Source: Verrucomicrobiota bacterium
Lineage (GTDB): Bacteria; Verrucomicrobiota; Verrucomicrobiia; Opitutales; Opitutaceae
DNA length: 43,187 nt
Direction: 5' to 3'
Assembly (NCBI GenBank): GCA_030605125.1
Contig: JAUWBD010000014.1
Coordinates: 1-43,187 of the forward strand
Part shown: positions 3,913 to 28,285 of the stretch, one piece after another
Position numbering within the stretch: position 1 is the stretch's first letter
How the letters are laid out: each line of letters opens with the position of its first letter
Notes under the pieces: model-generated
Databases searched by the model: none
Seen by the model: the letters and a program-made list of their open reading frames with translations, nothing else
Told to the model about the DNA's origin: nothing
Program-made: the position numbers and the translations under genes

Positions 3913-6131
<2,219 letters not shown>

Positions 6132-6135
<4 letters not shown>

Positions 6136-10171: not shown

Positions 10172-10196
10172 GCGCGGATGGGGCGAGGGAGCGCGG

Positions 10197-10796: not shown

Positions 10797-10797
10797 C

Positions 10798-12768: not shown

Positions 12769-12779
12769 GGGGGGAAGCT

Positions 12780-14744: not shown

Positions 14745-14832
14745 GGCGTGGCGTGGAGCGTTGGTGTGGGAGCCAGGCGGGCGGATGCGCGCCCGGGTTG
14801 GATTTGGGGGAAACTCAGGATGGTGGCGCCGT

Positions 14833-14885
14833 AAAAAAGGTGTTTAGGGAAAGGCCGACGCGGCTTTGGGGTAAACACCCCCAAA
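14833..14885 (-). terminator. Terminator with overlapping alternative hairpin (candidate attenuator)
   Basis: On the minus strand a hairpin with arms 14872-14879 and 14839-14846 (GGTGTTTA/TAAACACC) encloses an inner stem around 14850-14867. It is followed directly by six T residues (14838-14833), the layout of an intrinsic terminator. A second perfect 7-bp hairpin (TTTGGGG/CCCCAAA, 14865-14885) is transcribed just before it and shares bases with both the outer 5' arm and the inner stem, so the two cannot form together. It may simply end the upstream response-regulator transcript, or it may regulate read-through into the TonB operon that starts at 14744. Confidence 0.6.
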
Positions 14886-15075
14886 CATTCGGGCCTTTTG
14901 CCCATGCCCCGACGTGGTTCTCGGTGCGTGTAACTGCGGGCACCGGGCGCGGCGGTGCCGATCCGCGCATGGCGGAGAGGAGTTTTCCCGGGGTGCCGAG
15001 GGTGCGATCGCTGGGCGCGCCGCCGGAGAGTGGTCGCGGTCGTCGCAAGCGACGACGCTTACGGCGACGGGCGGG
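14886..15075. other. Non-coding gap upstream of the attenuator
   Basis: No gene is supported here. The only structure seen is an 8-bp perfect inverted repeat (GTCGTCGC/GCGACGAC) at 15039-15056, 20 nt downstream of the response-regulator stop. It lacks a T-tract, so it may be a transcript-end stabilising hairpin. Confidence 0.4.
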
Positions 15076-15450
15076 TCAGGGGGTGCCGGGGCCGGCGAAT
15101 TTCTCGATCTTGGGGAGCAGGCGGTCGAGCTCGATGGGCTTGGTGTCGTAGTCGTCGCAGCCGGCGGCGAGCGCCTGCTCGCGGTCGCCGGCCATGGCGT
15201 GGGCGGTGAGCGCGATCACCGGGATGTGGCGCGTGGTATCCGAAGCCTTGATACGGCGCGTGGCCTCCCAGCCGTCGATCACCGGCAGGCTCATGTCCAT
15301 GAGGATGAGCGCGGGCGCCTCGGTCTGCGCGAGGTCCACGCCCTGCTGGCCGTCCACCGCGATCACGATCTGGTAGCCGCGCCGCGTGAGGCGGCGGGAG
15401 AGCATGTCACGGTTCATCTCGTTGTCTTCGACGAGGAGGATTTTTGGCAT
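15076..15450 (-). CDS. Single-domain response regulator (CheY-like)
   Basis: A 124-residue receiver domain with no output domain. The acidic pocket (E8, D9), phospho-acceptor D52 in LILMDMSLPVIDG, T82 (IALTAHAM) and K104 (DTKPIE) are all present. Proteins of this type (DivK/CheY-like) act by protein contact or as phosphate shuttles. The ATG at 15450 gives the exact receiver start MPKILLVEDN; the longer frame from 15504 adds repeat-derived residues. It sits between the STAS protein and the TonB-kinase operon, so it is a plausible acceptor for the hybrid kinase or a link to the partner-switching block. That is inference. Confidence 0.93.
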   Translation of the reverse strand: MPKILLVEDNEMNRDMLSRRLTRRGYQIVIAVDGQQGVDLAQTEAPALILMDMSLPVIDGWEATRRIKASDTTRHIPVIALTAHAMAGDREQALAAGCDDYDTKPIELDRLLPKIEKFAGPGTP

Positions 15451-15471
15451 GGGGGAAAGCTGGGGACTTTG

Positions 15472-15587
15472 TTTTTTTACGCGAAGACGCGAAGATCGAA
15501 CCAAAGAGCGCGAAGAGGAAGAACGGAAACGAAAGCGCGGAATCCTTCGCGGCCTTGGTTTGGACCTTCGTGTCTTCGCGTTAAAAT
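15472..15587. repeat. Long imperfect palindrome (CGCGAAGACGCGAAG type)
   Basis: The left arm at about 15475-15519 and the right arm at about 15543-15586 are imperfect inverted copies of about 43 nt. ACGCGAAGACGCGAAG in the left arm matches CTTCGTGTCTTCGCGT in the right. It occupies the gap between the STAS gene and the response-regulator gene. It would form a long hairpin in the transcript. It looks like a member of a dispersed intergenic palindrome family. Confidence 0.7.
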
Positions 15588-15595
15588 TCGGGGCT

Positions 15596-15931
15596 TCAGC
15601 GCTCGGCGGCGAGGGCGGAGTCGAGGTCGGGGACGAGGTGGAGCACGGTGTGGAGGCCGGCGATCTCGAAAAAGTTGCGCAGGGCCGGCGTGAGGCCGGC
15701 GAGGAGGAGGCGACCGCCGTGTTTGCGTTGCTCCTTCTCGGCTTGGAGCAGCACGCGGAAGCCGGAGCTGGTCACGTAGTCGAGGGCGGAGCAGTCGAGA
15801 GCGACGGAGGCGGGGCCGGAGGAGAGGCGGGGTAGGAGCTCGGCGCGGAGCTCTTCGGAGCCGGCGTTGTCGAGCTTGCCGGCGAGGGTGAGGACGGTCC
15901 AGGAGCCGCGGGTGGAGGGCGTGATTTGCAT
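15596..15931 (-). CDS. STAS-domain anti-sigma-factor antagonist (SpoIIAA/RsbV-like)
   Basis: A 111-residue single STAS domain. LTLAGKLDNAGSEELRAEL (14-32) is the N-terminal half. ALDYVTSSGFRVLLQAEKE (49-67) carries the phosphorylation motif, with S56 at the position of the phospho-serine in SpoIIAA. Family role: when unphosphorylated it binds the anti-sigma kinase and frees the sigma factor. The likely kinase partner is the RsbW-like protein at 19468-19914. It lies 51 nt downstream of the Na/Pi-cotransporter gene. Confidence 0.9.
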   Translation of the reverse strand: MQITPSTRGSWTVLTLAGKLDNAGSEELRAELLPRLSSGPASVALDCSALDYVTSSGFRVLLQAEKEQRKHGGRLLLAGLTPALRNFFEIAGLHTVLHLVPDLDSALAAER

Positions 15932-15982
15932 GGTGAGGCTGGTTTGGAGCGGGCGGCGGGAGAAAGGCGAGCGCGGGCGGGG

Positions 15983-17605
15983 TTACGTTTGGGTGACGGC
16001 GGCGGGGTTGGCGAGGGCTTGTTGCGCGAGGGCGAATTGGCGGAGCAGCCAGACGGCGCGTTCGAAGAGGCCGGTGACGTAGAAGAGGTCGGACTTTTGC
16101 GCGTGGTCGAGGGCGGTCTCGGAGGCGAGGAGCTGGCGGCGGAGGCGCTCCATGAGGTCGCCGCGGTCGGCGGTGAGGCGGAGGAGGAGGGCGAGGTCGT
16201 CGGGATCGGAGGCACGCGTGGTGTCGAGGGCGGTGAGCAGGAGGGTGTCGAGGCTCTCGAGGAGCGAGTCGAGCAGGGGAGCCGAGGCGGAGCCGGGGCC
16301 GCGGAGGCGGGCGAGGGCGGCGGTGAAGTCGTGGATGGTGTCGGTGAGGGAGACGACGAGGGCGTGGCGTTGCTCGAGGGCGAGGAGGCGGGCGGAGGCC
16401 TGGGCGTCGGGCGACTGGCCGGCCAGTTCGCGGAGGTAGGCATGGATCTCGGCCGCGACCGTCTGGGCGGCGCGGTGGCGCACGGCGGGCGGGACGGCGG
16501 CGGCGGGCTGGCGCAGGGTGTCGAGCTGGGCGGGAAGCTGGGCGAGGAGCGCGACCTGTTCCTTGTCGGCGAGCTCGAGGGCGGAGTCGGGGTCGGCGAG
16601 GGCCTCGTTGGAGATGAAGCGCGGGCGGGAGAGGTCCTGCTCGTCGGTGGGCGGGGAGAGGCGGGCGAGCCAGGCGGCGGCGGGGCGCGAGCCGACGAGG
16701 GCGGCGAGGACCGCGGTGGATTGGAGAAAGAGAAAGGCGTAGGCGAGGCGGACCGGGGAGTCGGGCGAAGGGGCGAGCGCGGCGGAGAGCGAAAGCACAA
16801 GGGGCGCGCCGCTGTAGTGCTCCACGTAATACAGGGTGCAGAGCGCGAGGCCGGAGACGCCGTTGATGAGGGCTTGGTAGAGGGCGATCTGGCGGGGCAC
16901 GCCGCGGAGGTTGGAGGAGAGAAGGAAGATCGAGAGGCCGACGCCGGCGCCGGTGCCGAACATCATCATCGCGGCTTGGTCGAGGGAGAGCAGGCCGCCG
17001 TGGGCGAGGGCGATGGCGATGACGGCGATGGCGGAGGAGGACTGGACGAGGACGCGGAGGAGGGCGCCGGCGACGAAGGTGGCGAGCGCGGAGCCCTGGA
17101 TGAAGGCGGCGAGTTCGCGGAAGCCTTCGAAGGAGGGGAGCGGCGCGAAGGCCTCCTTCATGAGCTGGAGGCCGAGGAAGAGCAGGCCGACGTGGAAGAG
17201 GGCGGAGAGGGCGGGGCGGAGACGGGCGGGGCCGAGGTCGAAGGCGAGGGCGAGGCCGGCGACGCCGAGGAGGTAAAGGAAGGCGAGGTGCGCGTTGAGC
17301 GAGGCGAAGAAGACGAGCGGGACGGTGCCGAGGTTGGCCCAGGCGACGATGGGGAGCGCGTGGGCGACGGACATGAGGCCGCCGGAGACCAGGCTGGTGA
17401 GGATGAAGGCGACGGCGGTGGAGCTTTGGGTGACGGCCCCGAAGAGAAAACCGCCGGCGCCGGCGAGGAGGGGGCGGCGCGACCAGGCGGCGAGCTGACG
17501 GCGGAGGCGGCGGCTGGTGAGGCCCTGGAGGTGGGTGCGGATGCCCGAGACGCCGTGGAAAAAGAGGGCGAGGCCGGCGAGGAAGAGGGCGGCGAGCTCT
17601 GACAT
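15983..17605 (-). CDS. Na/Pi-cotransporter family protein with PhoU-like tail
   Basis: A 540-residue protein. The N-terminal half (1-320) has about 8-9 transmembrane helices and the two inverted QSS repeats of the family: TQSSTAVAF at Q60 and VQSSSAIAV at Q188. The C-terminal 200 residues (about 340-540) are cytosolic, helical and PhoU-like. Family role: sodium-coupled phosphate transport, with PhoU domains that may sense or gate. The position between STAS and receptor-like genes, not with pst or pho genes, suggests it feeds the signalling block. The start ATG at 17605 lies inside a perfect 16-bp palindrome. A second protein of the same architecture is at 36224-37861. Confidence 0.9.
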   Translation of the reverse strand: MSELAALFLAGLALFFHGVSGIRTHLQGLTSRRLRRQLAAWSRRPLLAGAGGFLFGAVTQSSTAVAFILTSLVSGGLMSVAHALPIVAWANLGTVPLVFFASLNAHLAFLYLLGVAGLALAFDLGPARLRPALSALFHVGLLFLGLQLMKEAFAPLPSFEGFRELAAFIQGSALATFVAGALLRVLVQSSSAIAVIAIALAHGGLLSLDQAAMMMFGTGAGVGLSIFLLSSNLRGVPRQIALYQALINGVSGLALCTLYYVEHYSGAPLVLSLSAALAPSPDSPVRLAYAFLFLQSTAVLAALVGSRPAAAWLARLSPPTDEQDLSRPRFISNEALADPDSALELADKEQVALLAQLPAQLDTLRQPAAAVPPAVRHRAAQTVAAEIHAYLRELAGQSPDAQASARLLALEQRHALVVSLTDTIHDFTAALARLRGPGSASAPLLDSLLESLDTLLLTALDTTRASDPDDLALLLRLTADRGDLMERLRRQLLASETALDHAQKSDLFYVTGLFERAVWLLRQFALAQQALANPAAVTQT

Positions 17606-17672
17606 GTCAGAGAATGACCTCTAGCCGACGCAGGCGGCTGGTCTGACATGTCCAATGACCAAGGACCATTGG
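17597..17672. promoter_or_regulatory. Palindrome cluster at the Na/Pi-cotransporter start
   Basis: A perfect 16-bp palindrome CTCTGACATGTCAGAG (17597-17612) covers the start codon at 17605-17603. An 11-bp copy of the same sequence, TCTGACATGTC, recurs 44 bp away (17642-17652). A further inverted repeat CCAATG/CATTGG follows at 17652-17672. Two copies of one dyad at a start codon fit an operator or an RNA element that masks translation initiation. They could also be a degenerate dispersed repeat. Confidence 0.45.
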
Positions 17673-17698
17673 CTTAAGCGGGCGGGACGCTGGTCGAA

Positions 17699-18343
17699 TC
17701 ACGGCGCGAGGCGGGTGGCGCGGAAGCAGAGCCAGAGGGAGGCGAAGACGGCGAAGGACGCGACGATCCAGGTGATGCGGCGCAGGACCTCGTAGCGGGC
17801 GGCGGCGCGGGCGAACGCGCTCTTCAGCTCCGCGGTGGTTGACGCTTCCATGGTGGCCGCCAAGGCGTCGAGTTTTTCGTCCAAGGCGCGGTCGATGCCG
17901 CGCACGGCGGCGTCGGTCGCGAGCGGATTGGCGGGGTCAAAGGAGGACAGGGCGACGCGGTAGGCTTCGCCCAGGCGGGTGTGCTCCTCGAGTGCCTCCG
18001 AGAATGGCGAAAGCTCCAGGGCGGACTCGCGCGACGCCAGGATCTCAAGGTCTCGACGGACTTCGGCCTCGTGGCGCTCGAAGCGGTCGCGATAGGTGGC
18101 GAGATCCTGCAGGTCGCGGCCGCGCAGCAGAACGTTTTTCCACTCCTGAACCTGGGTTTTGAAGGCGGCTCGGGCGCGGACGGTGAGCACAAGCGCGTCT
18201 TCGGCGGCGTCGAGGCGCGCGAGGTCCTCGGCGGTTTTTTGGTTGGTGTGGTGGAGGGCGAAGAGGCCCGTGGCGCCGAGGAGGAGGACGAGGAGGGAAA
18301 CGAAGGCCGCGACAGGGAGCAGGCTGGGGCGGGCGGGGCTCAT
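17699..18343 (-). CDS. Receptor-like four-helix-bundle membrane protein without output domain
   Basis: A 214-residue protein. TM1 is at about 10-30 and TM2 at about 190-207, with about 155 helical periplasmic residues between. FKTQVQEWKNVLLRGRDLQDLATYRDRF (61-88) matches the conserved turn of 4HB-type chemoreceptor sensor domains. The protein ends 7 residues after TM2, so it has no HAMP, MA or kinase domain. It is therefore a sensor domain that must signal through another membrane partner, or a truncated receptor. Neighbours are the GPP34 protein (46-nt gap) and the Na/Pi-cotransporter. Confidence 0.75.
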   Translation of the reverse strand: MSPARPSLLPVAAFVSLLVLLLGATGLFALHHTNQKTAEDLARLDAAEDALVLTVRARAAFKTQVQEWKNVLLRGRDLQDLATYRDRFERHEAEVRRDLEILASRESALELSPFSEALEEHTRLGEAYRVALSSFDPANPLATDAAVRGIDRALDEKLDALAATMEASTTAELKSAFARAAARYEVLRRITWIVASFAVFASLWLCFRATRLAP

Positions 18344-18354
18344 TTTCGGGCGGC

Positions 18355-18382
18355 GAGAACGAGTAAGAGAACGAGGACGATT
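18355..18382. repeat. 28-bp intercistronic repeat, copy A
   Basis: This matches 20886-20913 at 26 of 28 positions. It fills the gap between the GPP34 gene and the four-helix-bundle gene, 12 nt upstream of the latter's start. The unit itself is built from repeated GAGAACGA. Confidence 0.7.
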
Positions 18383-18389
18383 TCCCGGG

Positions 18390-19082
18390 CTACATGCCCA
18401 TCACCGGGGTGGCGGTGCGGAGGACGCGGGCGAGGGTGTCGATGGCGGCGGCGACCTCGCGGCCCACGAGATCCATGCGGGCGAGGGTGGCGATGCGCTC
18501 GCTGCGGGCGTGGTAGCGGGCGTCGTCGAAGATGCGGGCGAGGAGGTGGCTGGCGGTGAGCAGGCTGATGAGGATGGCGTCGCGCGGGTCGGGAAGATCC
18601 TCGCCGAGGATGAGGGCGGAGAGGCGGGTGCGCACCTCGACGCGCTCCTGGTTGTCCACGGTGGGGTAGCGGCGGACGCCGAAGACCCAGAGGAATTTTT
18701 TCTCCTGCTGGCTGAGGATGCCGCGGGCTACGAGCCGTTCGAGGGCGGCGCGTTCGAGGGTGCTGCGCTCGGAGGCGAAGACGCCGAGCCAGTGGGAAAC
18801 GGATTGGGGGGCGGGGGCGCTGGCGATCTGGCCGAGGGCGCGGTCGAGCAGGGGATCGCCGGTGGGGGCGCGGTCGAGGACGACGAGCTGCTGCGGGTCG
18901 GTGTCGATGCGGTTGGCGAGGGCGAGATCGGCGAGGAGGGCGCCGGCGAGGGCGTAGTCCAAACCCATTACAGGCATGGGACGGAGGGCGCCGGTGGTGT
19001 CGTCGAGGGCGAGGAGGAGGATCTCCTCGACGAAGGAGAGCGGGGAGTGGGGGTGGGCGGAGGGAGTGGCGGGCGTGGTCAT
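18390..19082 (-). CDS. GPP34 (Golgi phosphoprotein 3) domain protein
   Basis: A 230-residue protein. LSFVEEILLLALDDTTGALRP (15-35) followed by LDYALAGALLADLALANRID (41-60) is the N-terminal signature of the GPP34 family (PF05719). Helical segments and a VRTRLSALILGEDLPDPRDAILISLL block (150-175) complete the domain. Eukaryotic GOLPH3 binds phosphatidylinositol-4-phosphate; bacterial members are known but of unclear role. There is no signal peptide, so it is cytosolic or peripherally membrane bound. It starts 18 nt after a STAS gene and is followed by a membrane sensor gene, hinting at a membrane-associated role in the partner-switching block. Confidence 0.85.
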   Translation of the reverse strand: MTTPATPSAHPHSPLSFVEEILLLALDDTTGALRPMPVMGLDYALAGALLADLALANRIDTDPQQLVVLDRAPTGDPLLDRALGQIASAPAPQSVSHWLGVFASERSTLERAALERLVARGILSQQEKKFLWVFGVRRYPTVDNQERVEVRTRLSALILGEDLPDPRDAILISLLTASHLLARIFDDARYHARSERIATLARMDLVGREVAAAIDTLARVLRTATPVMGM

Positions 19083-19100
19083 CGGCGGCGGGGCTGGGGG

Positions 19101-19424
19101 TTACAGTGCGGAGGCGAGGTCGGCGCGGACGTCGAGGACGGTGAGGAAGCCGGAGAGCTCGAAGACCTCGCGGACGGAGGCGGGGAGGGCGACGAAGGTG
19201 GCGCGGCCGCCGGCGGTCTTGAACTTCTTGGCGGCGGAGAGGAAGACGCGCAGGCCGGCGGAGCTCACGTAGGCGAGGGCGGAGAGGTCGAGCACGAGGA
19301 CCTTGGCGCCGGAGGCGAGGGTGGCGTCGATGCGCTGTTCGAGGGCGGGGCTGGCGAGACCGTCGAGGCGGCCGGCGAGGGCGAGGACGGTGGCGGTGGG
19401 CTGTTTGGTTTCGGTGATTTCCAT
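19101..19424 (-). CDS. STAS-domain anti-sigma-factor antagonist (RsbV-like)
   Basis: A 107-residue single STAS domain: VLALAGRLDGLASPALEQRI (13-32), then VLVLDLSALAYVSSAGLRVFL (42-62). The phosphorylatable serine is at S55 (SSAGLRV). It lies 43 nt downstream of the RsbW-like kinase gene, the usual RsbV/RsbW pairing, so these two are the most likely direct partners. Confidence 0.93.
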   Translation of the reverse strand: MEITETKQPTATVLALAGRLDGLASPALEQRIDATLASGAKVLVLDLSALAYVSSAGLRVFLSAAKKFKTAGGRATFVALPASVREVFELSGFLTVLDVRADLASAL

Positions 19425-19467
19425 GGTATGAGCGGGAGAGGGGGAGGAGAGTGGCGGCGGCGTGCAA

Positions 19468-19914
19468 TCAGGAAGCGGCCGGCGTGCCGAGGATGCGTTC
19501 GAGGGTGAGGATGTTGTGCGGGCCGCGGCGTTCGTAGGCGGCGTGGGTCATGAGTTTTTTGACGAGGTGCACGCCGAGGCCACCGATGGGGCGGTCTTCT
19601 AGGGGCGCGGAGACATCGACTTCGGCGCGGGCGAGGGGATCGTAGGCGGGGGCGTCGTCGGTAAGGGTGAGGCGGATACGGCCTGGGGCGGGGGCGCTGA
19701 ACTCGACGGTGAAGGAGCGGGTGCCGGGGGGCTGGTCGCGGTGACCGTGGTGGATGATGTTGGTGATCGTCTCCTCGAGGGCGAGCTGGAGCGCCATGAG
19801 GTCGGCCATCGGCAGCTCGAGCGCCTCGGCCCAGGTCTCAAAGGCCGCCGCGGCGCGAGAGATCTCGGCAAGGTCGTTGACGAGGGTGAGCTGGAGCGGC
19901 GCGGGGGCGGACAT
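19468..19914 (-). CDS. RsbW-like serine kinase / anti-sigma factor
   Basis: A 148-residue GHKL ATPase of the HATPase_c_2 type. The N box is LALEETITNIIHHG (44-57), the G1-like box is LTDDAPAYDP (83-92) and the G2 region is PIGGLGVHLVKKLM (108-121). Family role: binds and inhibits a sigma factor and phosphorylates the STAS antagonist. No sigma factor gene occurs in the window, so the target may be elsewhere or may not be a sigma factor. It starts 118 nt after the ABC ATPase stop. That gap holds three phased direct repeats, suggesting its own promoter. Confidence 0.92.
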   Translation of the reverse strand: MSAPAPLQLTLVNDLAEISRAAAAFETWAEALELPMADLMALQLALEETITNIIHHGHRDQPPGTRSFTVEFSAPAPGRIRLTLTDDAPAYDPLARAEVDVSAPLEDRPIGGLGVHLVKKLMTHAAYERRGPHNILTLERILGTPAAS

Positions 19915-19942
19915 GGGGCGGAGGGCGGCGGGAGGAGTTAAC

Positions 19943-19971
19943 CACTAATGGACACTTATGGTCACTAATGG
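19943..19971 (-). promoter_or_regulatory. Three 10-bp direct repeats upstream of the RsbW-like gene
   Basis: On the plus strand CACTAATGG (19943), CACTTATGG (19953) and CACTAATGG (19963) recur with an exact 10-bp period, about one DNA turn. They end 29 nt upstream of the start codon at 19914. In a GC-rich window this AT-richer phased array could be an operator or promoter element. Confidence 0.45.
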
Positions 19972-20032
19972 AGCGGAGGCGGATGGCGAGTGGCGGATGG
20001 GTGACGATCGGGTGGCGAACGAGGACGATTGT

Positions 20033-20845
20033 TTAGACGTAGAGTTCCTGGAGGAGGGCGGCGGCGGGTTCGTCGAGCTGCTCGCGGCGGCGCACCTCGT
20101 CGAAGCGGTCGAGGAGGTCCTCGGCGCGGAGGCGTTTTTTCTCGGCGCCTTGGATGTCGTGGAGCACGCGGCCGCGGTGCATCATGATGATGCGGTCGCC
20201 GAGGCTCACGGCCTGCTGCATGGAGTGCGTGACCATGAGGGTGGTGAGTTTTTCGCGACGGATGATCTCGTCGCTGAGTGTGATGACCTGGTCGGCGCTC
20301 TTGGGGTCGAGGGCGGCGGTGTGCTCGTCGAGGAGGAGGAGGCTGGGGCGCAGCCAGGTGGCCATGAGGAGCGTGAGGGCTTGGCGCTGGCCGCCGGAGA
20401 GGGAGCCGATGGCGTTGTCGAGCCGGCCTTCGAGGCCCATGCGAAGGGTGGACACGCGGGCACGGAGGTCGTCCATGAGGTCGCGGGAGAGGGCCCAGGT
20501 GAGGCCGCGGGCGCGGCCGCGGCGGGCGGCCATGGCGAAGTTTTCCGCGATGCTCATGTTGGGCGCGGTGCCGCCGAGGGGGTTTTGGAAAACGCGGCCG
20601 ACGAGGCGGGCGCGCTTGTGCTCGGGCCAACGGGTGACGTCGTGCCCGGCGATCTCGATCTTGCCGTGGTCGGGCAGGAAGGTGCCGGCGACGGCGTTGA
20701 GGAGGGTGGATTTGCCCGACCCGTTCATGCCGAGCACGATCACGAACTGGCCGTCGGCGAGCGCGAGGTCCACGCCTTGGAGGGCGCGGACTTCGTTGAC
20801 GGTGCCGGGGTTGAAGGTTTGGCGGAGGCCGCGGATGGAGAGCAT
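20033..20845 (-). CDS. ABC transporter ATP-binding protein
   Basis: A 270-residue ATPase with all motifs intact: Walker A GMNGSGKST (39-47), Q-loop Q87, signature LSGGQ (149-153), Walker B LLLLDE (169-174) and switch H207 (MVTHSMQ). It pairs with the BPD_transp_2-type permease upstream (70-nt gap) and the four-domain binding protein. This matches the ABC_sub_bind importer type (TrpX-like and related), so amino-acid-like or other small organic substrates are possible; none is proven. Confidence 0.93.
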   Translation of the reverse strand: MLSIRGLRQTFNPGTVNEVRALQGVDLALADGQFVIVLGMNGSGKSTLLNAVAGTFLPDHGKIEIAGHDVTRWPEHKRARLVGRVFQNPLGGTAPNMSIAENFAMAARRGRARGLTWALSRDLMDDLRARVSTLRMGLEGRLDNAIGSLSGGQRQALTLLMATWLRPSLLLLDEHTAALDPKSADQVITLSDEIIRREKLTTLMVTHSMQQAVSLGDRIIMMHRGRVLHDIQGAEKKRLRAEDLLDRFDEVRRREQLDEPAAALLQELYV

Positions 20846-20885
20846 GGGAGGTGGGCTCGGCGGGGGAGAACGGGCGGAGGAGAAA

Positions 20886-20913
20886 GAGAACGATTAAGAG
20901 AACGAGAACGATT
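20886..20913. repeat. 28-bp intercistronic repeat, copy B
   Basis: This matches 18355-18382 at 26 of 28 positions. It lies between the permease stop (20916) and the ATPase start (20845). A weaker, degenerate GAGAAGGA-type stretch is present in the next gap at about 21846-21871. Confidence 0.7.
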
Positions 20914-20915
20914 GG

Positions 20916-21842
20916 TCAGGCGGCGCTTGGGACGCGGCGGAGTTTCTTGGCGAAGCCCGGCAGGACGAGGGCGGCGAAGACGAAGACGGCGGTGACGAGC
21001 TTGAGGTCGTTGGGATCGAGGCCCCAGCGGAGCGCGATGGCGACGAGGAGGCGGAAGAGCACGGAGCCCATGACGGCGCCGATGATGGTGACGCCGAGGC
21101 TGCGCGAGCCGGTGAGGGCCTCGCCGATGATGACGCTGGCCAGGCCCCAGACGATCATGCCGATGCCCATCTGCGCGTCGGCGAAGCCTTGATACTGGGC
21201 GAGGAGCGCGCCGGAGAGGGCGACGAGGCCGTTGGAGAGGGCGAGGCCGAGGATGAGGTGCGTCTCGACGTTGGCGCCGAGGGCGCGGATCATCTGGGCG
21301 TTGTCGCCGGTGGCGCGCATGGCGGTGCCGAGGTGGGTGCGGAAAAAGAGAAAGAGCACGACGCCGACGGCGGTGGCGGCGAGGAGGGAGAGGAGCAGGA
21401 GCGTGAGATCGCCGGAGGCGACGCGCCAGCCGGCGAGGTCGATATACTCGGCGCGGAAGAGTTTTTGCCCGAGCTGCTCGCCCCAGGTGGCGAAGCTGGT
21501 GTGCTGCATGAGGGGCACGTTGGAGCGGCCCATGACGTTCAGGTTGACCGAGTAGAGGGCGGTCATGACCAGGATGCCGGCGAGGAGGGCGTTGATCTTG
21601 AACTTGGTGTGGAGGATGCCGGTGAGCGCGCCGGCGGCGGCGCCGGCGACGGCACCGGCGGCGGTGGCGACCACGGGGTTGTGGCCCTTGACGAGGAGCA
21701 CGGCGGCGACGGCCGCGCCGAGGGTGATGGAGCCGTCGGTCGTGATGTCGGGCATCGAAAAGATGCGGAAGGAAATCAGCACACCCATCGCGAGGAGCGC
21801 GAGGATGAGGCCGATGGTGAAGGCGCCGAGTAACAGGGTCAT
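20916..21842 (-). CDS. ABC transporter permease (BPD_transp_2 type)
   Basis: A 308-residue protein of about 8-9 transmembrane helices. MPDITTDGSITLGAAVAA (29-46) and the cytosolic loop HLGTAMRATGDNAQMIRALGANV (180-202) are marks of the branched-chain-amino-acid/TrpY-like permease class. A single permease gene implies a homodimer. It is the partner of the ATPase downstream and the tetra-domain binding protein upstream. The STAS-fusion gene lies between them with 30-nt spacing. Confidence 0.92.
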   Translation of the reverse strand: MTLLLGAFTIGLILALLAMGVLISFRIFSMPDITTDGSITLGAAVAAVLLVKGHNPVVATAAGAVAGAAAGALTGILHTKFKINALLAGILVMTALYSVNLNVMGRSNVPLMQHTSFATWGEQLGQKLFRAEYIDLAGWRVASGDLTLLLLSLLAATAVGVVLFLFFRTHLGTAMRATGDNAQMIRALGANVETHLILGLALSNGLVALSGALLAQYQGFADAQMGIGMIVWGLASVIIGEALTGSRSLGVTIIGAVMGSVLFRLLVAIALRWGLDPNDLKLVTAVFVFAALVLPGFAKKLRRVPSAA

Positions 21843-21872
21843 CGGGGAGAAGGAAAAAGATTATGAGAAGGA

Positions 21873-23108
21873 TCAGGCGGAGATGGGGGCGAACCAGAGC
21901 GCGCCGCGGGCGAACTCGCTCTCGCCGGCGCCGGTGATCTCGCGCTGGTCGGCGAGGAGGTGGAGCAGGGCTTGTGGGGCGGAATTCTCAAACAGCTCGG
22001 CGATGGTGGCGGGCAGTTCGAGGCGTCCTTTGCGGATCGGGCGGTAGGGGAAGGCGGCGGCGTGGAAGTGGCCGCGCAGCGGGACGTCCTTGGCGAGCGG
22101 GCGCAGCCAAGGGGAGAGCTTGTGGCCGGGGCGGGCGACGACGCCGACGACGAGCGAGGTGCCGTCGCGGTGGGCGCGCTCGGCGGTGAAGGAGAGCCAG
22201 TCGCGGATCTGCGGGAAGGCGAAACGGTCGGAGGGCGCGGCCTCGAGGGGGCGGCGAAGCGTGGCGCCGACGAGGCCGGCGTTTTCGGCGTAGAGGACGA
22301 GCGCGGCGGCCTCGGCGCCGGAGAGCTCGAGGGCGGTGGCGGCGAGCTCGGAGAGCGGCACCGCGGGGGCGTCGTCGGCGGCGGAGAAGCGGGCGAGGCG
22401 CGAGAACTGCCCCTCGCCGCGCAGGCCGAGGGGGAGGTGGCCCTGCGGGACAAAGCCGGCCTGGCAGAGGGCGAAGTCGGGGCGCGCGGAGCCGTCGGTC
22501 GGTTGGAAAACGGCCGCGCCGGAGATGGCGAGAAATTCGCCGAGGCGGGCGGAGGCCTCGCGGGGATCGGGCCCGAGCGCGCCGAGGCCGAGCGCGAAGA
22601 CGGCGGGGCCGAAGGCGAGGGGTTTTTGTAACGGAGGTATGGATACGGCGGTGGCGGGGCCGGCGGGGTCGCCGAGGGCGGCGAGCGTGAGAGGCGCGGC
22701 GGAGGCGGAGAGCGTGTGGAGCTCGTAGGTGGCGCGGGCGGAGCGGTGTTGCGCGGGCGCGGCGGAGGGGGCGGAGGGGGCGGAGGCCGGCTGAAAGGCG
22801 GTGCTCCCAAGGTCGGCCAGAAGCATGGAGAGGCCGGCGAGCTCGAGGACGGAGCGGGCCTCGGCGGAGACGGGGCCGAGGGAGAACTCGCCCTTGATCG
22901 CGCGGAGCTGCTTGTAGGCGGCGAGGAGCACGCGCAGGCCGGCGGAGCTGATGTAGGGCACGGCGGCGAGGTCGAGGCGGAGGCGGTGCTCGCCGGCGCG
23001 GATGGTCGCAGAGATGGCGTCCTGGACGGGTTGGCACCAGTTGGCGTCGAGGCGGCCGGCGAGGCGGAGCGTGACGAGATCGGCGGCGCGGGCGGTGGTG
23101 ATTTCCAT
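21873..23108 (-). CDS. STAS domain fused to a large C-terminal domain of unknown function
   Basis: A 411-residue protein. Residues 1-100 are a STAS domain (LRLAGRLDANWCQPVQDAI, then LDLAAVPYISSAGLRVLLA with serines S54/S55). A low-complexity A/P/S linker (107-122) follows, then a domain of about 280 residues that I do not recognise. The latter contains FAFPQIRDWLSFTAERAHRDGTSLVVGVVARPG and LPATIAELFENSAPQALLHLL. No signal peptide is present. It is encoded between the binding protein (54-nt gap) and the permease (30-nt gap), so it should be co-transcribed with the importer. It may couple importer state to the RsbW-like kinase downstream; this is inference. Confidence 0.85.
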   Translation of the reverse strand: MEITTARAADLVTLRLAGRLDANWCQPVQDAISATIRAGEHRLRLDLAAVPYISSAGLRVLLAAYKQLRAIKGEFSLGPVSAEARSVLELAGLSMLLADLGSTAFQPASAPSAPSAAPAQHRSARATYELHTLSASAAPLTLAALGDPAGPATAVSIPPLQKPLAFGPAVFALGLGALGPDPREASARLGEFLAISGAAVFQPTDGSARPDFALCQAGFVPQGHLPLGLRGEGQFSRLARFSAADDAPAVPLSELAATALELSGAEAAALVLYAENAGLVGATLRRPLEAAPSDRFAFPQIRDWLSFTAERAHRDGTSLVVGVVARPGHKLSPWLRPLAKDVPLRGHFHAAAFPYRPIRKGRLELPATIAELFENSAPQALLHLLADQREITGAGESEFARGALWFAPISA

Positions 23109-23162
23109 TGGAGAGCGGAGGGGGCGGACGGATCGGGCGGGTGGTGCGGATCGGTTTGCGGA

Positions 23163-26100
23163 CTACTCGGCGACCTTGGCTTCGGCGAGGAGGGCGGGGG
23201 GCAGCTCCATGCCGACGGCGCGGGCGTGGGCGGGGGAGACGGTGAGCTTTACGGTGGGCGGAAGCAGGAAGGGAATGTCGGCGGGCGAGGCGCCGGCGAG
23301 CACCCGCTCGATCATGCGCACGGTCTGCTCGCCCACCGCGTGGTAGTCGCGGCCGATGGCGATGGGCGCGCCAAGGGGCACGGTGGAGCTGTTGAGGCTG
23401 AAGAGGGGCTTGCGGGCGCGACGGGCGGCCTGGGTGATGCTGGTGAAGCCGGCGGTGGTGAGGTTGTCCGAAACCTGCACGATGGCGTCGATGCGGCGGC
23501 CGGCGAGGGAGGCGGCGGCGTCGGGGAGTTCGGTGGCGGTGTTGACGGCGACGGTCTCGAGGTGGATGCCGCGGGCGCGGCAGGCGGCGGAGAGGGCGTC
23601 CTTCACGTCCACGGAGTTGGTTTCGGCCGGGCAGAAGAGCGTGCCGATGCGGCGGATCTGCGGGTAGTGGCGGGCGAGGAGGTCCAGCATCTCGTCCACG
23701 GGCGCGAGCACGGAGACGCCGGTGACGTGGGGCAGGTGGTCGGTGAAGCTTTTCCCGGCGCCGGCGGCGATGGGATTGGCCACCATGGTGAAGACGATGG
23801 GGCGGTCCTTGACCCGGCGGATCGCGGCTTGGAGCGAGGGCGTGGAGATGGGCACGAAGATATCGGTGCGGTCGGTGAGCGCGGCGTCGTAGATCGCGCC
23901 GAGCGTGGCGATGTCGCCCTGGGCGGAGCGGAGGCTGAGGACGTAGTCGCGCCCGGCGACGAGCGGGCTGCGGGCCCAGCCGGCCTTCATGCCTTCGAGC
24001 GTCTCGTCGGCTGGGGCGTTTTCGTTGTAGAGGATGAGCGCGATGCGTTTCGGCGCGGCGGGTGGGGCGGAGAAGATTCGCGAGGGTGCGGGGGTGGAGG
24101 CAGGTGCCGGTTGGGCGGCGGCGCTGCCAGGCTCGGCGGTGAGTTCGGCGATCAGGGCGGGGGGAAAATTCAGTCCAAGCGCGGCGGCGGCCTTGGGATT
24201 GAACGCGACCTGCCGGATCGACACGTCCTCCATCGGGATGCCGGCGGGCGACTCGCCGGCGAAGACGCGCAGGAGTTTGCGAGCGGCGGCGCGGCCGGAG
24301 GGGCCGTAGCCGGGGCCCACGGCGAAGACCGCGCCGACGTCGAGGTAGGCGGGGTCGGCGAGCACCAGCGGGATGCGGGCCTTGGTGAGCGTGCCGGCGA
24401 TGGCGTCGATGGCTTGGAGCGCGGTGTTGTCGTCGGCGATATAGACGAGCTCGACGCGGCGGGTGACGAGGGCTTGCACGGCTTGGACGGCCTCGCCGGG
24501 GGTGGCAATGGTGAGTTCGGTTAACTGGAGGCCCGCTTCGCCGGCGGCGGCGCGAAGCTTGCGAATGGTGGAGACGGAGTTGGCCTCGCCGGCGTTGTAG
24601 AGCACGCCGACGCGGCGGGCCGCGGGGAAGGCGCGGCGAATAACATCCACTCCGGCCGCGACCGGGATGCTGGTGCCCACGCCGGTGATGCGCGGATCGT
24701 GGTCGGTCCAGGACCGGCCGATGCCAGCGGCGATGGGATCGGTGCAGTAGGTGAAGACGATGGGCTTGGTGCGGACGACTCCGAGCGAGGCCTGGATGAC
24801 GGGCGTGCTGAAGGGCACGATGACGTCCACGTCCGAGTGGGCGAAGTTTTGCAGCATCGGCACGATGTTGACCGTCTCGCCGGAGGCGTGGGCGCGGAGG
24901 ACGGTGAGGTTGCGCCCCTCGACGTAGCCGGCGAGGCGGAGCTCATCGAGCAGGCCGTCGGCGCAGTCCTGCCAGCTGGGCTCGGGCGTGTAGTAGGCGA
25001 AGGCGATTTTCTTTGGCGGGAGCGGGGGCGGGGTGGCGGCGGCGGGCTCGGGGGCGGTGAGCTCGGCGATCAACGCGGGGTCGAGTTGGAGGCCGAGGGC
25101 GGCGGCCGCCTTGGGGTTGAACGTCACCACGCGCACCGAGACATCCTCCATCGGGATGCTGGCGGGCGACTCGCCGGCGAAGACGCGCAGGAGCATGCGG
25201 GCGGCGGCGCGGCCCGGAGGTCCGTAGCCGGGGCCGACGGCGAAGAGCGCGCCCGAGTCGATGTAGGCCGGGTCGGCGATGATGAGCGGCACGCGCGCGC
25301 GGGTGAGCGTGCCGGCGATGGCGCTCATCGATTGCAGCGCGGTGTTGTCGCCGGCGATGTAAACCGCCTCCACGCGGCGGGTGACGAGCGCCTGGGCGGC
25401 CTGGATGGCCTCGCCCGGGGTGGCGAGGGTGATCTCGTGCAGCTGGATGCCGGCTTCGGCGGCGATGGGGCGAAGTTTTTGGATGGTGGAAACGGAGTTG
25501 GCCTCCGCGGCGTTGTAGAGCACGCCGAGACGGCGCAGCGAGGGGAAGGCGCGGCGGATTACGTCCACGCCCGCGGCGACGGGGATGCTGGTGCCGACTC
25601 CGGTGATGCGCGGGTCGTGGTCGGTCCAAGAGCGTCCCACGCCGGCGGCGATGGGGTCGGTGCAATAGGTGAACACCATCGGCTTGGTGCGGACGGTGGC
25701 GAGGGCGCCCTGAATGACGGGCGTGGTGAAGGGCACGATCACATCGACGTCCGAGTGGGCGAGGTTTTGCAGCTTCGGGGCGATGTTGACGATCTCGCCG
25801 GAGGCGTGCGTGCGGACGATTGTGAGGTTTTGCCCCTCGACGTAGCCGGAGAGCCGCAGCTCGTCGATGAAGGCGTCGGCGCACTCCTGCCAGCCGGGTT
25901 CGGGCGTGTAGTAGGCGAGGCCGATCTTCTTGGGTGGGAGTGGGGCGGAGGGACGGGGCGGGGGGGGCGGGGCGGATGATGCCGAGGAGGCGGGTTGAGC
26001 GGCGGCGCTTCCGGGGGCGTGGCGCTCGACGCCGTTTTCGTCGATGACGAGCGCGGCCGACTCGAGCAGGTCGGGCGGGATGGACCAGCCGGGGCGCAGG

Positions 26101-27092
26101 CCGGCGAGGGCGCGGAGATTGAAGACGAGCGTTTCGGGCACGACGTTTTCGACGGGGATGTCGGCGGGCGTCTTGGTGCCGGAGAGGACCTCGCCGGCGA
26201 GCAGGCCGACGAGGCGGCCGACCTCGGTGTAGTTGGCGCCGACGTCGAAGAGGCCGCCCTTTTTGGCGTTGGGCGGGATGACGGTGAAGACCGGCACGCG
26301 GCCTTTGCGGCCGGCGGCGATCACGGTGTCCACGGCGCTGAGCACGGTGGTGTCGCCGCAGACCCAGAGGGCTTCGGCGCCGCGGGCCACGAGGGCGTTG
26401 GCGGCTTCGGACACGCCGGCGGAGTTCTCCACCGTGGTTTCGAGGAGGTTGATGCCGAGGCGGCGGGCGGTCTCGCGAGCGAGGGCCATCTGCGCCTCGG
26501 CGTTGGACTCGGCGGCGTTGTAGAGCGTGCCGACGGCCTTGAGGTTCGGGTTGAGGCGCTTCGCGATCTCGAACGAGCGGGCCACCGGCTGGAGCGTGCC
26601 GTAGCCCGCGAGGTGGGGCGGGTGGTCCATCGGATCGGTGTCGCTGATGCCGACCCCGGCGGCGGAGGGCAGGGTGACGCCGGCAAACAGATGCGGCGTG
26701 CGGCCGGCGCGGTTGGCGCTGGCGACGGCTTGGAGCGAGGGCGTGCTGATGGTGAGCAGCAGGTTGTAGCCGCCCGAGGCCATGCGTTGCGCGATGGTCT
26801 GGGCGACGGGCATGTCTCCCTCGGCGTTGAAAAATGCCAGGTCAAAGTCGCGGCCGTGTTGCCAGCCGCGCTCGGCCATGCCCGCCAGCATGCCGTGGCG
26901 GAGATCGTCGAGCACCATTTGCGAGGCGTGCTGGAGGATGGCGACGCGCGGGCGCGGTGCGGACGGTGCGGTGACTTCGCGGGCGGCGGCGGCGGGTTTG
27001 GCGCGCGAGCCCAGATCCGAGTAAAGCAGGATGGCGGAGGCCGCGAGGATCAGGAAAAGGCCGAGGGCAAGACGGCGAAAAAAGACCAACAT
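23163..27092 (-). CDS. Membrane-anchored periplasmic binding protein with four tandem ABC_sub_bind domains
   Basis: A 1309-residue protein from the ATG at 27092; a GTG at 27143 would add 17 residues. One N-terminal hydrophobic segment (about 4-25) anchors it. Four complete ABC_sub_bind (PF04392-like) domains follow: residues about 49-348, 388-683, 694-986 and 1014-1309. Each has the PRIxGVGTSIPV or comparable hinge region, VGxLYNAxEANS and a terminal P-E-x-V block. Proline-rich linkers separate 1/2 (373-387), 2/3 and 3/4. Domains 2 and 3 are nearly identical. Normal family members have one domain of about 320 residues. It probably delivers ligand to the permease/ATPase encoded downstream, or acts as a multivalent sensor. 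Confidence 0.92.
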   Translation of the reverse strand: MLVFFRRLALGLFLILAASAILLYSDLGSRAKPAAAAREVTAPSAPRPRVAILQHASQMVLDDLRHGMLAGMAERGWQHGRDFDLAFFNAEGDMPVAQTIAQRMASGGYNLLLTISTPSLQAVASANRAGRTPHLFAGVTLPSAAGVGISDTDPMDHPPHLAGYGTLQPVARSFEIAKRLNPNLKAVGTLYNAAESNAEAQMALARETARRLGINLLETTVENSAGVSEAANALVARGAEALWVCGDTTVLSAVDTVIAAGRKGRVPVFTVIPPNAKKGGLFDVGANYTEVGRLVGLLAGEVLSGTKTPADIPVENVVPETLVFNLRALAGLRPGWSIPPDLLESAALVIDENGVERHAPGSAAAQPASSASSAPPPPPRPSAPLPPKKIGLAYYTPEPGWQECADAFIDELRLSGYVEGQNLTIVRTHASGEIVNIAPKLQNLAHSDVDVIVPFTTPVIQGALATVRTKPMVFTYCTDPIAAGVGRSWTDHDPRITGVGTSIPVAAGVDVIRRAFPSLRRLGVLYNAAEANSVSTIQKLRPIAAEAGIQLHEITLATPGEAIQAAQALVTRRVEAVYIAGDNTALQSMSAIAGTLTRARVPLIIADPAYIDSGALFAVGPGYGPPGRAAARMLLRVFAGESPASIPMEDVSVRVVTFNPKAAAALGLQLDPALIAELTAPEPAAATPPPLPPKKIAFAYYTPEPSWQDCADGLLDELRLAGYVEGRNLTVLRAHASGETVNIVPMLQNFAHSDVDVIVPFSTPVIQASLGVVRTKPIVFTYCTDPIAAGIGRSWTDHDPRITGVGTSIPVAAGVDVIRRAFPAARRVGVLYNAGEANSVSTIRKLRAAAGEAGLQLTELTIATPGEAVQAVQALVTRRVELVYIADDNTALQAIDAIAGTLTKARIPLVLADPAYLDVGAVFAVGPGYGPSGRAAARKLLRVFAGESPAGIPMEDVSIRQVAFNPKAAAALGLNFPPALIAELTAEPGSAAAQPAPASTPAPSRIFSAPPAAPKRIALILYNENAPADETLEGMKAGWARSPLVAGRDYVLSLRSAQGDIATLGAIYDAALTDRTDIFVPISTPSLQAAIRRVKDRPIVFTMVANPIAAGAGKSFTDHLPHVTGVSVLAPVDEMLDLLARHYPQIRRIGTLFCPAETNSVDVKDALSAACRARGIHLETVAVNTATELPDAAASLAGRRIDAIVQVSDNLTTAGFTSITQAARRARKPLFSLNSSTVPLGAPIAIGRDYHAVGEQTVRMIERVLAGASPADIPFLLPPTVKLTVSPAHARAVGMELPPALLAEAKVAE
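24135..25931 (-). repeat. Two near-identical 0.9-kb direct repeats inside the binding-protein gene
   Basis: Segments of about 25044-25931 and 24135-25013 encode domains 2 and 3 with a period of 306 codons (918 nt). Long blocks of protein are the same (for example HSDVDVIVPF, FTYCTDPIAAG, SWTDHDPRITGVGTSIPVAA). This indicates a recent internal duplication. Confidence 0.85.
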
Positions 27093-27448
27093 ATGCGCAG
27101 GAGCACGGAGTGCCGGCGGCGCGTCTTCAACGTCTTTTGACACGTGGAGGCGATTGGCGTCGCCGCGGGCGGATGGGGGCGCTGGGTAATTCTGGGCGAA
27201 AAGCCATGCCTTCGTGGGGGCCTCCTCTGCTTTGGGTCAGGGCGCAATCGGAGCCTTCAAGGACACCACGGCCGCGAATACCGGCTTTACCGCTCTCTCC
27301 ATCCCATTTGCCAAGGGCAGGCCTGCCGTCTCGCCCTCGGGCGAGGCGGTTTTTTGCGTGCGTCTTTAGACTTTGGCGTAGTTATTTCACCGATACGTCA
27401 CGCCCGCGGTTTGCCTGGGCTGATCCGGGAGGTGCCATCGGAGGCGCC
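27093..27448. other. Divergent non-coding region between binding-protein and prepilin genes
   Basis: The region separates a minus-strand gene from a plus-strand gene and should hold both promoters. A TTGACA hexamer is at 27137-27142 (plus) without a convincing -10. I found no match to riboswitch classes I know. The only strong structure is the orphan plus-strand terminator at 27326-27355. Confidence 0.4.
27326..27355 (+). terminator. Intrinsic terminator with no gene in front of it
   Basis: An 11-bp stem (27326-27336 with 27339-27349, one T-G wobble, the innermost pair opening to a CTCG loop) is followed by TTTTTT (27350-27355). The nearest upstream gene is on the other strand. It therefore ends either a small RNA or a leader transcript of the prepilin-like gene that starts 94 nt downstream. 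Confidence 0.65.
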
Positions 27449-28285
27449 ATGTGCCACCACACGACGTTTTTTTGCTTCGCCCCTGGTTCCGCCCCGCGCC
27501 GCCTGTCCGGCTTTACTCTCATCGAGCTGCTCACCGTCATCGCGATCATCGGCATCCTCGCCGCGCTCCTCATTCCGGTGGCCGGCCAGGTGCGGCAGAC
27601 CGCGCGTTATTCGCTGACAATCGCGAACCTCCGCACCTGGACCACCGCGACCGTGGCGTATGCCCATGAGAACCGGGGATTCGTGCCGCACCAGGGCAAT
27701 GTGCTGGGCAACCCCGCCACTCCGGCCAACGGCGGCCTCATCCAAGGCATCCCGGCTTGGTATAACGCGCTCCCGCGATACGTCGGCAACGGGGTGGCTG
27801 CGCTCGCGGACGTCCCGCTGAACGCGTTGCCCAAGGTCGGCGATCGTTCTCCTTGGGTGTGTCCCCAATTTCAGGACGGCGCTTCAGGCCAGCCTTGGCT
27901 TTCCTACGCGCCGAGCGCCTACCTGAGCAACACGCCTTCCGCCGCGAATCCCTACATCACGAATTTGAACCGGCTCCCGGCGCACGTGGGTTCGGATCTG
28001 AGCCGTCTCGTGTTGTTTGGAGAGACGACCAACGGCGCGGTCGGCACTTCGGGCAACGGGTTCCCCACCTGCACGCCCAACACGAGCAACGACAGCGATG
28101 GGCTGTGGCGTTTCAACCGGTGGGGCGGGGAGCGAGGCAAGGCCGGCGTAGGCATGGCCGACGGGAGCGTGCGGACGTTCAAGTCCGCCGAGCTGCGCGC
28201 CATGGGCGGCGGTGGCGGCGCCGTGGCGACCAACAAGCTCAAGGGCGACAATCCGTCGGGCATCATCTGGCAGACGCGTCCGTGA
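27449..28285 (+). CDS. Prepilin-like secreted/pseudopilin protein (PVC H-X9-DG type)
   Basis: A 278-residue protein. RRLSGFTLIELLTVIAIIGILAALLIPV (18-45) is a type IV prepilin leader with the G-F cleavage site and the E5 residue, followed by a hydrophobic helix. The remainder, with WVCPQFQD and the C-terminal GVGMADGSVRTF block, fits the large class of Verrucomicrobiota/Planctomycetota prepilin-like proteins with a processing-associated C-terminal DG motif. Such paralogues are numerous in those phyla, and their role is poorly known. The frame is open far upstream, but the leader places the start at 27449. Processing would need a prepilin peptidase from elsewhere; a PilC homologue is encoded at 41922-43115. 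Confidence 0.88.
   Translation: MCHHTTFFCFAPGSAPRRLSGFTLIELLTVIAIIGILAALLIPVAGQVRQTARYSLTIANLRTWTTATVAYAHENRGFVPHQGNVLGNPATPANGGLIQGIPAWYNALPRYVGNGVAALADVPLNALPKVGDRSPWVCPQFQDGASGQPWLSYAPSAYLSNTPSAANPYITNLNRLPAHVGSDLSRLVLFGETTNGAVGTSGNGFPTCTPNTSNDSDGLWRFNRWGGERGKAGVGMADGSVRTFKSAELRAMGGGGGAVATNKLKGDNPSGIIWQTRP

Follow-up and report, generated by a model that had tools for sequence, protein, structure and literature searches.

We describe a gene at positions 23163-27092 of a 43,187-nt stretch of DNA from a Verrucomicrobiota bacterium of the family Opitutaceae (JAUWBD010000014.1, assembly GCA_030605125.1; the whole stretch is called the window here), which encodes four tandem ATP-binding cassette (ABC) substrate-binding domains (SBDs) in a single polypeptide. 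Judged by their sequences, these domains represent three ancient and distinct classes, A, B and C, rather than one unit repeated; the window array is A-B-B′-C, and B was duplicated recently in this lineage. The same strand then encodes a STAS-domain accessory protein, an ABC permease, an ABC ATPase and a set of signalling proteins (Table 1). We put at roughly 60% the reading in which the anchored array feeds several ligands to one importer, while the STAS accessory protein links that importer to partner-switch signalling.

Three domain classes on one anchored chain

An earlier note, made from the letters of this DNA, had proposed four such domains in series behind a membrane anchor, joined by proline-rich linkers, and each of these features is borne out. 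PF04392 (ABC_sub_bind) matches four separate stretches of the protein at 162.6, 156.2, 151.8 and 134.1 bits, so that all four domains, and not fewer, lie above the curated cut-off of 25.9; given these scores, chance is excluded as their source. A profile search of the 4.88-Mb assembly placed all four of its PF04392 matches within this gene and none elsewhere. We rejected TrpX as a name: the equivalog NF041285 needs at least 390 bits, single domains score 169, 148, 148.4 and 134, and the whole-protein score of 585.5 is only the sum over the four stretches. The frame contains no internal stop from an alternative GTG start at 27143, which would give 1,326 aa, down to 23163. We prefer the ATG at 27092, as many homologues begin at about the matching residue, and it is probably the real start, giving 1,309 aa. 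Large plus-strand frames across the gene were dismissed, from their overlap alone, as out-of-frame shadows in GC-rich DNA.

The linkers are rich in proline and alanine, with the lengths given in Table 1. Ahead of the first domain (D1) lies a single hydrophobic segment with conserved flanks (RRLxLGLxLI...LLxSDLxSR), and we found no lipobox at the N-terminus of the window protein. A loose form of the flank pattern recurs in 69 of 71 SBD proteins from STAS-linked loci, the window included; the other two are a contig-cut gene and a lipobox-bearing protein. By eye, importer-only proteins of two related loci (L059 and L067) have lipobox-like leaders and the lone binders of two others (L094 and L095) have signal-peptide-like ones. 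These observations favour, by inference, a permanent anchor over a cleaved leader.

The division into classes emerges from identity and phylogeny together. D1, the D2/D3 pair and D4 share 30-34% identity with one another, whereas D2 and D3 share 79% and differ with a dN of 0.13 and a dS of 0.47, as under purifying selection. In a maximum-likelihood tree of 80 domains, from which the weak or partial ones of L070, L096, L097 and L098 were left out, clades follow position in the chain, with support of 100/100 for C, 99/100 for B and 100/99 for the A core; one middle domain (L065) falls outside the B clade. A genome of the same genus (G191) carries A-B-C, and its B joins the window D2/D3 pair at 100/100. 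In a larger tree, which also holds 34 unlabelled domains, the 185 labelled domains need 3 label changes, where the fewest possible is 2 and shuffled labels need 86 on average; because the labels derive from the class profiles, this result speaks to coherence and is no independent discovery. Both this tree and the pocket counts below left out 28 loci (L070, L096-L098, the STAS-less L059, L067, L094 and L095, near-copies and cut contigs), together with domains covering 230 model positions or fewer.

The classes also differ in their predicted ligand pockets. Three relatives with solved structures (3lkv, 6hni and 3lft), which match the whole window protein at E values of 2e-39 to 3e-33, are binders of Phe, Tyr and Trp, and the Thr, Glu, Asn and Asp pocket columns are conserved there too. 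According to the available text of PMC6816091, two columns, those of VC_1101 Ala246 and Tyr262, set selectivity in the solved relatives; that the other columns line the pocket we infer from their conservation. We counted these columns over 74 A, 52 B and 59 C domains. The TP-loop Thr is invariant throughout, and the Glu and Asn of the ExN motif and the Asp of the DN motif are kept, in that order, in 74, 69 and 74 of the A domains, 52, 51 and 52 of the B domains and 56, 59 and 55 of the C domains. At the Ala246 column, class A has mostly Ile (23), Met (15) or Leu (11; 49/74 together), class B has Asp (42/52) and class C has Asn (21), Ala (9) or Gln (8; 38/59 together). The Asn of the DN motif is absent from 70/74 A domains and kept in 52/52 B and 58/59 C domains. 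The pocket comparison proposed in the earlier note, made here by alignment columns, thus yields a signature for each of A, B and C, and D2 is identical to D3 at all listed columns. This pattern fits an amino-acid-like binding frame with class-specific ligands, and we think it likely that A, B and C differ in what they bind. Three ancient classes with one recent duplicate favour several ligands over mere avidity.

The window protein shares its PF04392 family and conserved pocket framework with TrpX, CD0873 and VC_1101 (3lft, 6hni and 3lkv), but those chains are single-domain proteins of 295-319 aa, and the residue at the Ala246 column differs in most domains. A parallel in organization is GlnPQ, in which, as the available text of PMC8025302 has it, two SBDs of different specificity stand in series, fused to the permease of one ABC importer and joined by flexible linkers. 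Both arrangements, so far as that text describes GlnPQ, set different SBDs in series on one chain with linkers and one importer, here predicted from genes. Unlike GlnPQ as described there, with its two SBDs fused to the transmembrane domain, the present system has separate SBD and permease genes, a single-helix anchor, PF04392 domains, one to five of them from three classes, and a STAS partner gene. A literature search that was thin on subscription journals returned no description of SBD chains with three or more domains or of this operon.

The importer genes and their STAS protein

The SBD gene is followed by a run of same-strand genes with successive gaps of 54, 30, 70, 118, 43 and 18 nt, up to the GPP34 gene. 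With SBD, permease and an ATPase bearing all its motifs encoded together, the gene set of an ABC importer with its SBD is complete. In Pfam, PF02653 is the only family that the permease matches at E values of 0.001 or less, and by the Mla/Mce criterion the permease is not of the MlaE type. Elsewhere in the genome PF02653 matches only a fused pair on a different contig, which makes the neighbouring permease the obvious partner of the array. The ATPase motifs are widely kept among 93 relatives, a set that counts 20 contigs twice: Walker A in 91, LSGGQ in 93, Walker B in 92 and the H-loop in 89. Going by its motifs, the ATPase should be catalytically competent, which makes an importer the simplest interpretation, and as permease and ATPase genes come directly after the STAS gene, substrate delivery to the importer is the first role to assume. 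We hold it very probable that the array feeds this importer. The earlier note had seen the domains, anchor, linkers and downstream signalling genes, and RsbW-like, STAS and response-regulator genes do lie on the same strand; in its reading of the role, it had overlooked the permease and ATPase genes and the three-class nature of the array.

The 411-aa STAS protein has two parts, a STAS domain at about residues 1-105 and an acetolactate-decarboxylase-like domain at about 117-411. In the full structure model (mean predicted local-distance difference test score, pLDDT, 87.6), the N-terminal domain is predicted to resemble SpoIIAA and RsbV. Ser54-Ser55 is invariant in 24/24 members; when aligned to SpoIIAA, Ser55 falls on the first Ser that follows Asp there, which we take to be the phosphorylated Ser58. 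The Ser motif is missing from the first 160 residues in 5/82 open reading frames (ORFs), four of which look, from their starts or lengths, wrong-start or partial. The fifth (L104, 4643-6295, minus strand), near the main operon and on the other strand, encodes a second STAS protein, whose decarboxylase-like match is weaker (81.9 bits).

Folded alone, the C-terminal domain reaches a pLDDT of 89.9, and its model resembles acetolactate decarboxylase 6j92_A (Z 17.3, root-mean-square deviation (rmsd) 3.0, 199 aligned) and human PTD012 (Z 14.0, rmsd 4.3, 228 aligned), the latter being, in the available text of PMC12435205, a decarboxylase with a three-His zinc site. HxH is kept in 24/24 domains of the STAS protein, whereas HxHx(10)H occurs in 0/24 of them and in 9/9 PF03306 relatives; a third metal ligand may come from elsewhere, for example the invariant H383. 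In Pfam, none of the 24 members matches the acetolactate-decarboxylase model, and beyond STAS the C-terminal part gives only weak matches (E 0.073 or worse), each in 1/24 members. We rejected acetolactate decarboxylase as an identity, since the third His is lacking throughout and the profile comparison is not significant. The models are consistent with a decarboxylase-like ligand-binding domain whose activity is only putative.

Precedent for a STAS protein in such a setting comes from MlaB, which the available text of PMC5016091 presents as a required ABC transporter subunit that affects its ATPase. As in MlaFEDB so described, a cytoplasmic STAS protein is here encoded with a permease and an ATPase, and our STAS model superposes on the STAS chain of solved MlaFEBD (7cha_K) with Z 11.8, rmsd 2.3 and 94 aligned. 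Unlike MlaFEDB, the present system has a PF02653 permease, PF04392 SBDs in place of MlaD and a STAS protein with an extra large domain. By analogy with MlaB, we give even odds that the STAS protein regulates the importer.

Table 1. Features of the tandem substrate-binding gene and of the operon that follows it; coordinates are those of the window.
Feature	Coordinates	Strand	Basis
Tandem substrate-binding protein, A-B-B′-C	23163..27092	minus	Open frame and four PF04392 stretches; 1,309 aa from ATG 27092
N-terminal membrane anchor	27003..27092	minus	Hydrophobic segment, residues 18-47 of the 1,326-aa frame
Domain D1, class A	26037..26954	minus	PF04392 and tree
Linker D1-D2, Pro/Ala/Ser-rich, about 34 aa	25935..26036	minus	Between domain limits
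Domain D2, class B	25041..25934	minus	PF04392 and tree
Linker D2-D3, short, Pro-rich, about 8 aa	25017..25040	minus	Between domain limits
Domain D3, class B duplicate (B′), 79% aa identity to D2	24126..25016	minus	PF04392 and tree
Linker D3-D4, Pro/Ala-rich, about 24 aa	24054..24125	minus	Between domain limits
Domain D4, class C	23166..24053	minus	PF04392 and tree
Accessory STAS protein, 411 aa	21873..23108	minus	Pfam STAS; structure models and fold searches
ABC permease, BPD_transp_2	20916..21842	minus	PF02653, 4.8e-29
ABC ATPase, 270 aa	20033..20845	minus	PF00005, 3.1e-26; Walker A, LSGGQ, Walker B Glu and H-loop present
RsbW-like kinase, HATPase_c_2, 148 aa	19468..19914	minus	PF13581, 4.5e-23; best match in genome
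Stand-alone STAS protein, 107 aa	19101..19424	minus	PF01740, 1.7e-18
GPP34-family protein	18390..19082	minus	PF05719, 1.1e-51
Membrane-type protein, 214 aa, hydrophobic ends (by eye), without Pfam match	17699..18343	minus	
Na/Pi cotransporter-like protein, role uncertain	15983..17605	minus	PF02690
Second stand-alone STAS protein, 111 aa	15596..15931	minus	PF13466/PF01740
Single-domain response regulator	15076..15504	minus	PF00072

Related loci, signalling genes and a proposed function

Genomes with a PF04392 match numbered 19/200 in a family search, 44/384 in a class search and 54/387 in a phylum search. Scanning an alignment of the STAS protein against one genome for each of 84,980 species yielded 116 relatives, the best 80 of which are our named loci. 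By the labels in their database records, some of which are doubtful for metagenome-assembled genomes, 55 of these loci belong to Verrucomicrobiota, 9 to Planctomycetota, 6 to Acidobacteriota, 4 to Pseudomonadota, 3 to Bacteroidota and 1 to Lentisphaerota, with 2 lacking a phylum; 20 of the SBD proteins there have identical counterparts in genomes of the earlier searches. An SBD gene lies within the stretch examined in 74/80.

Chains with three or more PF04392 domains, which the earlier note had proposed to look for, do exist in relatives, as A-B-C, A-B-C-C, A-A-B-B-C and other arrangements. The 70 complete SBD genes, two each coming from L117, L169 and L176, encode one to five domains: A-B-C in 24, A-B in 13, A-C in 12, A in 11, C in 4, and A-A-B-B-C, B-C, a partial A-B-C, B, A-C-C and C-C once each. 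A cultured relative, Cerasicoccus maritimus (L113), has an A-B-C operon. The order is always A, B, C in every SBD frame of the 120 loci L059-L178 and the window. With the window and contig-cut genes included, 72 SBD genes in 72 loci immediately precede a same-strand STAS gene. Four-domain A-B-C-C proteins were found in four genomes of the phylum, although in L193 the frame reaches the contig end and in L195 the score margins are small for 2/4 domain classes. As the other four-domain proteins are A-B-C-C, the four-domain state, to go by these arrangements, probably arose more than once. Domains can also be split over two genes, as at L198 (4770-7958), where an array without class B adjoins a separate class B binder, transcribed divergently and bearing a lipobox-like leader. 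At L117 (6096-9965), labelled Acidobacteria, an A-B-C gene is followed by a separate anchored class C gene and then the STAS gene, making four domains on two chains.

The window operon holds three of the six PF01740 (STAS) matches of its genome. The genome has ten PF13581 matches; that of the operon scores 81.9 bits in a 158-aa frame, and the other nine score below 34 bits in longer frames. The operon encodes two elements of a partner switch, a STAS antagonist with an acceptor-type Ser and a HATPase_c_2 kinase. PF07228, the SpoIIE-type phosphatase family, matches this genome only on other contigs, with three strong and one weak match. In the stretch examined of the 80 named loci, RsbW-like genes occur in 36, further STAS genes in 35, SpoIIE-type genes in 27 and all three in 20; among the 45 loci of at least 15 kb the counts are 29, 27, 21 and 16. 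For scale, the 4.88 Mb of the window's genome contain a single strong stand-alone RsbW-like match and three strong SpoIIE ones; this is one genome and not a matched control. Six SpoIIE-type frames checked with Pfam (those of L062 and L122 being the same gene) all contain PF07228, joined to receiver, HisKA, cyclic-nucleotide or Cache domains. In close relatives, a HisKA-receiver-SpoIIE protein, a phosphatase that also has kinase-like and receiver parts, closes or precedes the operon at L062 (13931-15400) and L122 (14836-16305), which share a contig, and at L149 (5093-6559). At L121 (5020-12982), CheC-like, PAS-GAF kinase and receiver-PAS-SpoIIE genes come directly before the STAS-decarboxylase-like, permease and ATPase genes.

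The cluster resembles SpoIIAA/SpoIIAB and RsbV/RsbW in combining STAS proteins bearing an acceptor-type Ser with a HATPase_c_2 kinase, and SpoIIE-type phosphatases are found in the related loci as noted. It differs from them in the fusion of one STAS domain to a decarboxylase-like domain, the gene for this protein lying between the SBD and permease genes, and in the lack of a phosphatase gene within the window's own cluster.

In the model we propose, a membrane-anchored array of periplasmic SBDs would serve the one adjacent ABC importer, each class capturing a ligand of its own, probably an amino acid or a similar small molecule. The tethered domains would dock in turn on the same permease, offering it several substrates at high local concentration, and B′ would add capacity for one ligand. 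Less firmly, we propose that in the cytoplasm the STAS protein would bind the importer as MlaB binds MlaF, and that its decarboxylase-like domain would bind an imported product. The RsbW-like kinase would phosphorylate Ser55, and a SpoIIE-type phosphatase, whose gene lies close by in some relatives and at other sites in the window's own genome, would reset it; uptake and partner-switch genes would thereby inform each other. That the state of the importer is signalled through the RsbW and STAS proteins seems to us to fall a little short of an even chance. More tentative is a signal-coupled importer, found in several phyla, in which a growable three-class array would read several nutrients and the STAS-decarboxylase-like protein would turn occupancy into RsbW/STAS/SpoIIE-type output, one complex being both multi-substrate importer and multi-input receptor.

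The predicted ligand difference of A, B and C is directly testable, domain by domain. These loci vary in array size, from one to five domains on an anchored chain of its own, and in the classes gained or lost between lineages; they offer a natural experiment on the number of binding domains that a single importer can exploit, and on the reasons for it. If the STAS link is true, it would also reveal a route from nutrient uptake into a partner-switch pathway, both in Verrucomicrobiota and in other phyla.

Competing explanations and the wider neighbourhood

The four domains might in principle be false. An assembly artefact is unlikely given the divergence of D2 and D3 (82% nucleotide identity), the shortness of exact repeats in the gene (33 nt at most) and the related tandem genes in many independent assemblies. 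The specific case of a chimera, in which the A-B-C genes of two strains were joined into a spurious fourth domain, finds some room in an assembly of 271 contigs and a same-genus genome with A-B-C; it is nevertheless highly improbable, as a junction from B end to B start needs a real read, the linkers are in frame, D2 and D3 differ at 18% of sites and four other genomes have A-B-C-C proteins. If the domains are real, they might still all bind the same ligand, with more copies simply giving more capture capacity. The near-identity of D2 and D3, down to the listed pocket columns, suits this explanation, as do the duplications that recur in relatives as B-B, A-A and C-C. However, dosage alone would not keep three fixed classes in a fixed order, and the low identity among the window A, B and C and their class-specific conserved pocket residues argue in the same direction, so we consider pure avidity unlikely. 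We likewise think it improbable that class A has lost ligand binding and serves in structure or docking, leaving binding to B and C. Class A is membrane-proximal, occurs in 63/70 complete genes (one partial A counted) and mostly lacks the Asn of its Asp-Asn motif, but its Thr, Glu, Asn and Asp pocket columns are retained, and where A is the only domain (11/70) it probably suffices. A sensor role for the array, which the earlier note had raised, is possible. In its strongest form, the array and ABC complex would mainly report ligand to the RsbW, STAS and SpoIIE-type genes, with transport secondary. The signalling content of the window operon points that way, as do the joint occurrence of RsbW-like and SpoIIE-type genes in 23/80 named loci and 19/45 long ones and the arrangement at L121, where the receiver-PAS-SpoIIE gene ends 125 nt before the STAS gene and no SBD gene lies in the 10 kb upstream. 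Retention of the catalytic ATPase motifs in 89-93 of 93 relatives, and the loci that lack signalling genes altogether, speak against it, and we regard sensing in place of import as somewhat unlikely.

The proposed multi-ligand importer tied to a partner switch has evidence of its own to contend with, and the following points all weigh against it. In the stretch examined, none of the three partner-switch gene types occurs in 36/80 named loci or in 12/45 long ones, which means that not every locus shares the signalling link, and a SpoIIE-type (PP2C) phosphatase gene is missing from the window. The acetolactate-decarboxylase link is one of fold only, with hhalign of the decarboxylase-like domain against PF03306 giving a probability of 1.8, which is not significant. 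Single-domain genes make up 16/70 of the complete SBD genes, so the array is not essential. Six named loci have no SBD, at least two of them (L121 and L175) with several kb of upstream sequence, and at L173, L176 and L178 an SBD gene lies downstream of the ATPase, a poor fit to the scheme. Genome G323 (L080 and L081) has two tandem SBD genes, one A-C-C and one A-B, whose N-termini look anchor-like, and no importer genes in the stretch examined. Finally, single-domain binders without a STAS neighbour fall inside C (L094 and L095) or beside A (L059 and L067) in the 80-domain tree, which suggests that the three classes may descend from separate single binders.

Other features of the neighbourhood are more loosely connected to the array. 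An ORF at 18340-19467 was rejected as a gene because it has no family match and overlaps same-strand frames with a coding-type GC pattern and Pfam matches. We also set aside a defence role: PADLOC gave no match for five of six proteins, and the sixth, the ATPase, matched 26 models, of which the 25 listed are ATPase-bearing by name or matched part. A promoter scan of 14700-27500 found none. Upstream, the SBD gene adjoins a prepilin-like gene on the opposite strand (27398-28285, with an N-terminal cleavage/methylation motif). There are no inverted repeats of at least 12 nt in 27093-27500, yet a terminator scan lists a terminator-like hairpin there, at 27325-27350, between the two genes. GPP34, the Golgi phosphoprotein 3 family, recurs in 8/80 named loci, in several of them between small STAS and response-regulator genes. 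The window has two Na/Pi cotransporter-like genes, the one listed in Table 1 and another at 36224-37861. Beyond the response regulator, the same strand (3913-14744) encodes two TonB receptors, a DUF4154 (YfiR-like) protein and two kinases, one of them multi-PAS and the other a hybrid with three receiver stretches; all of these are possibly part of the same regulon.

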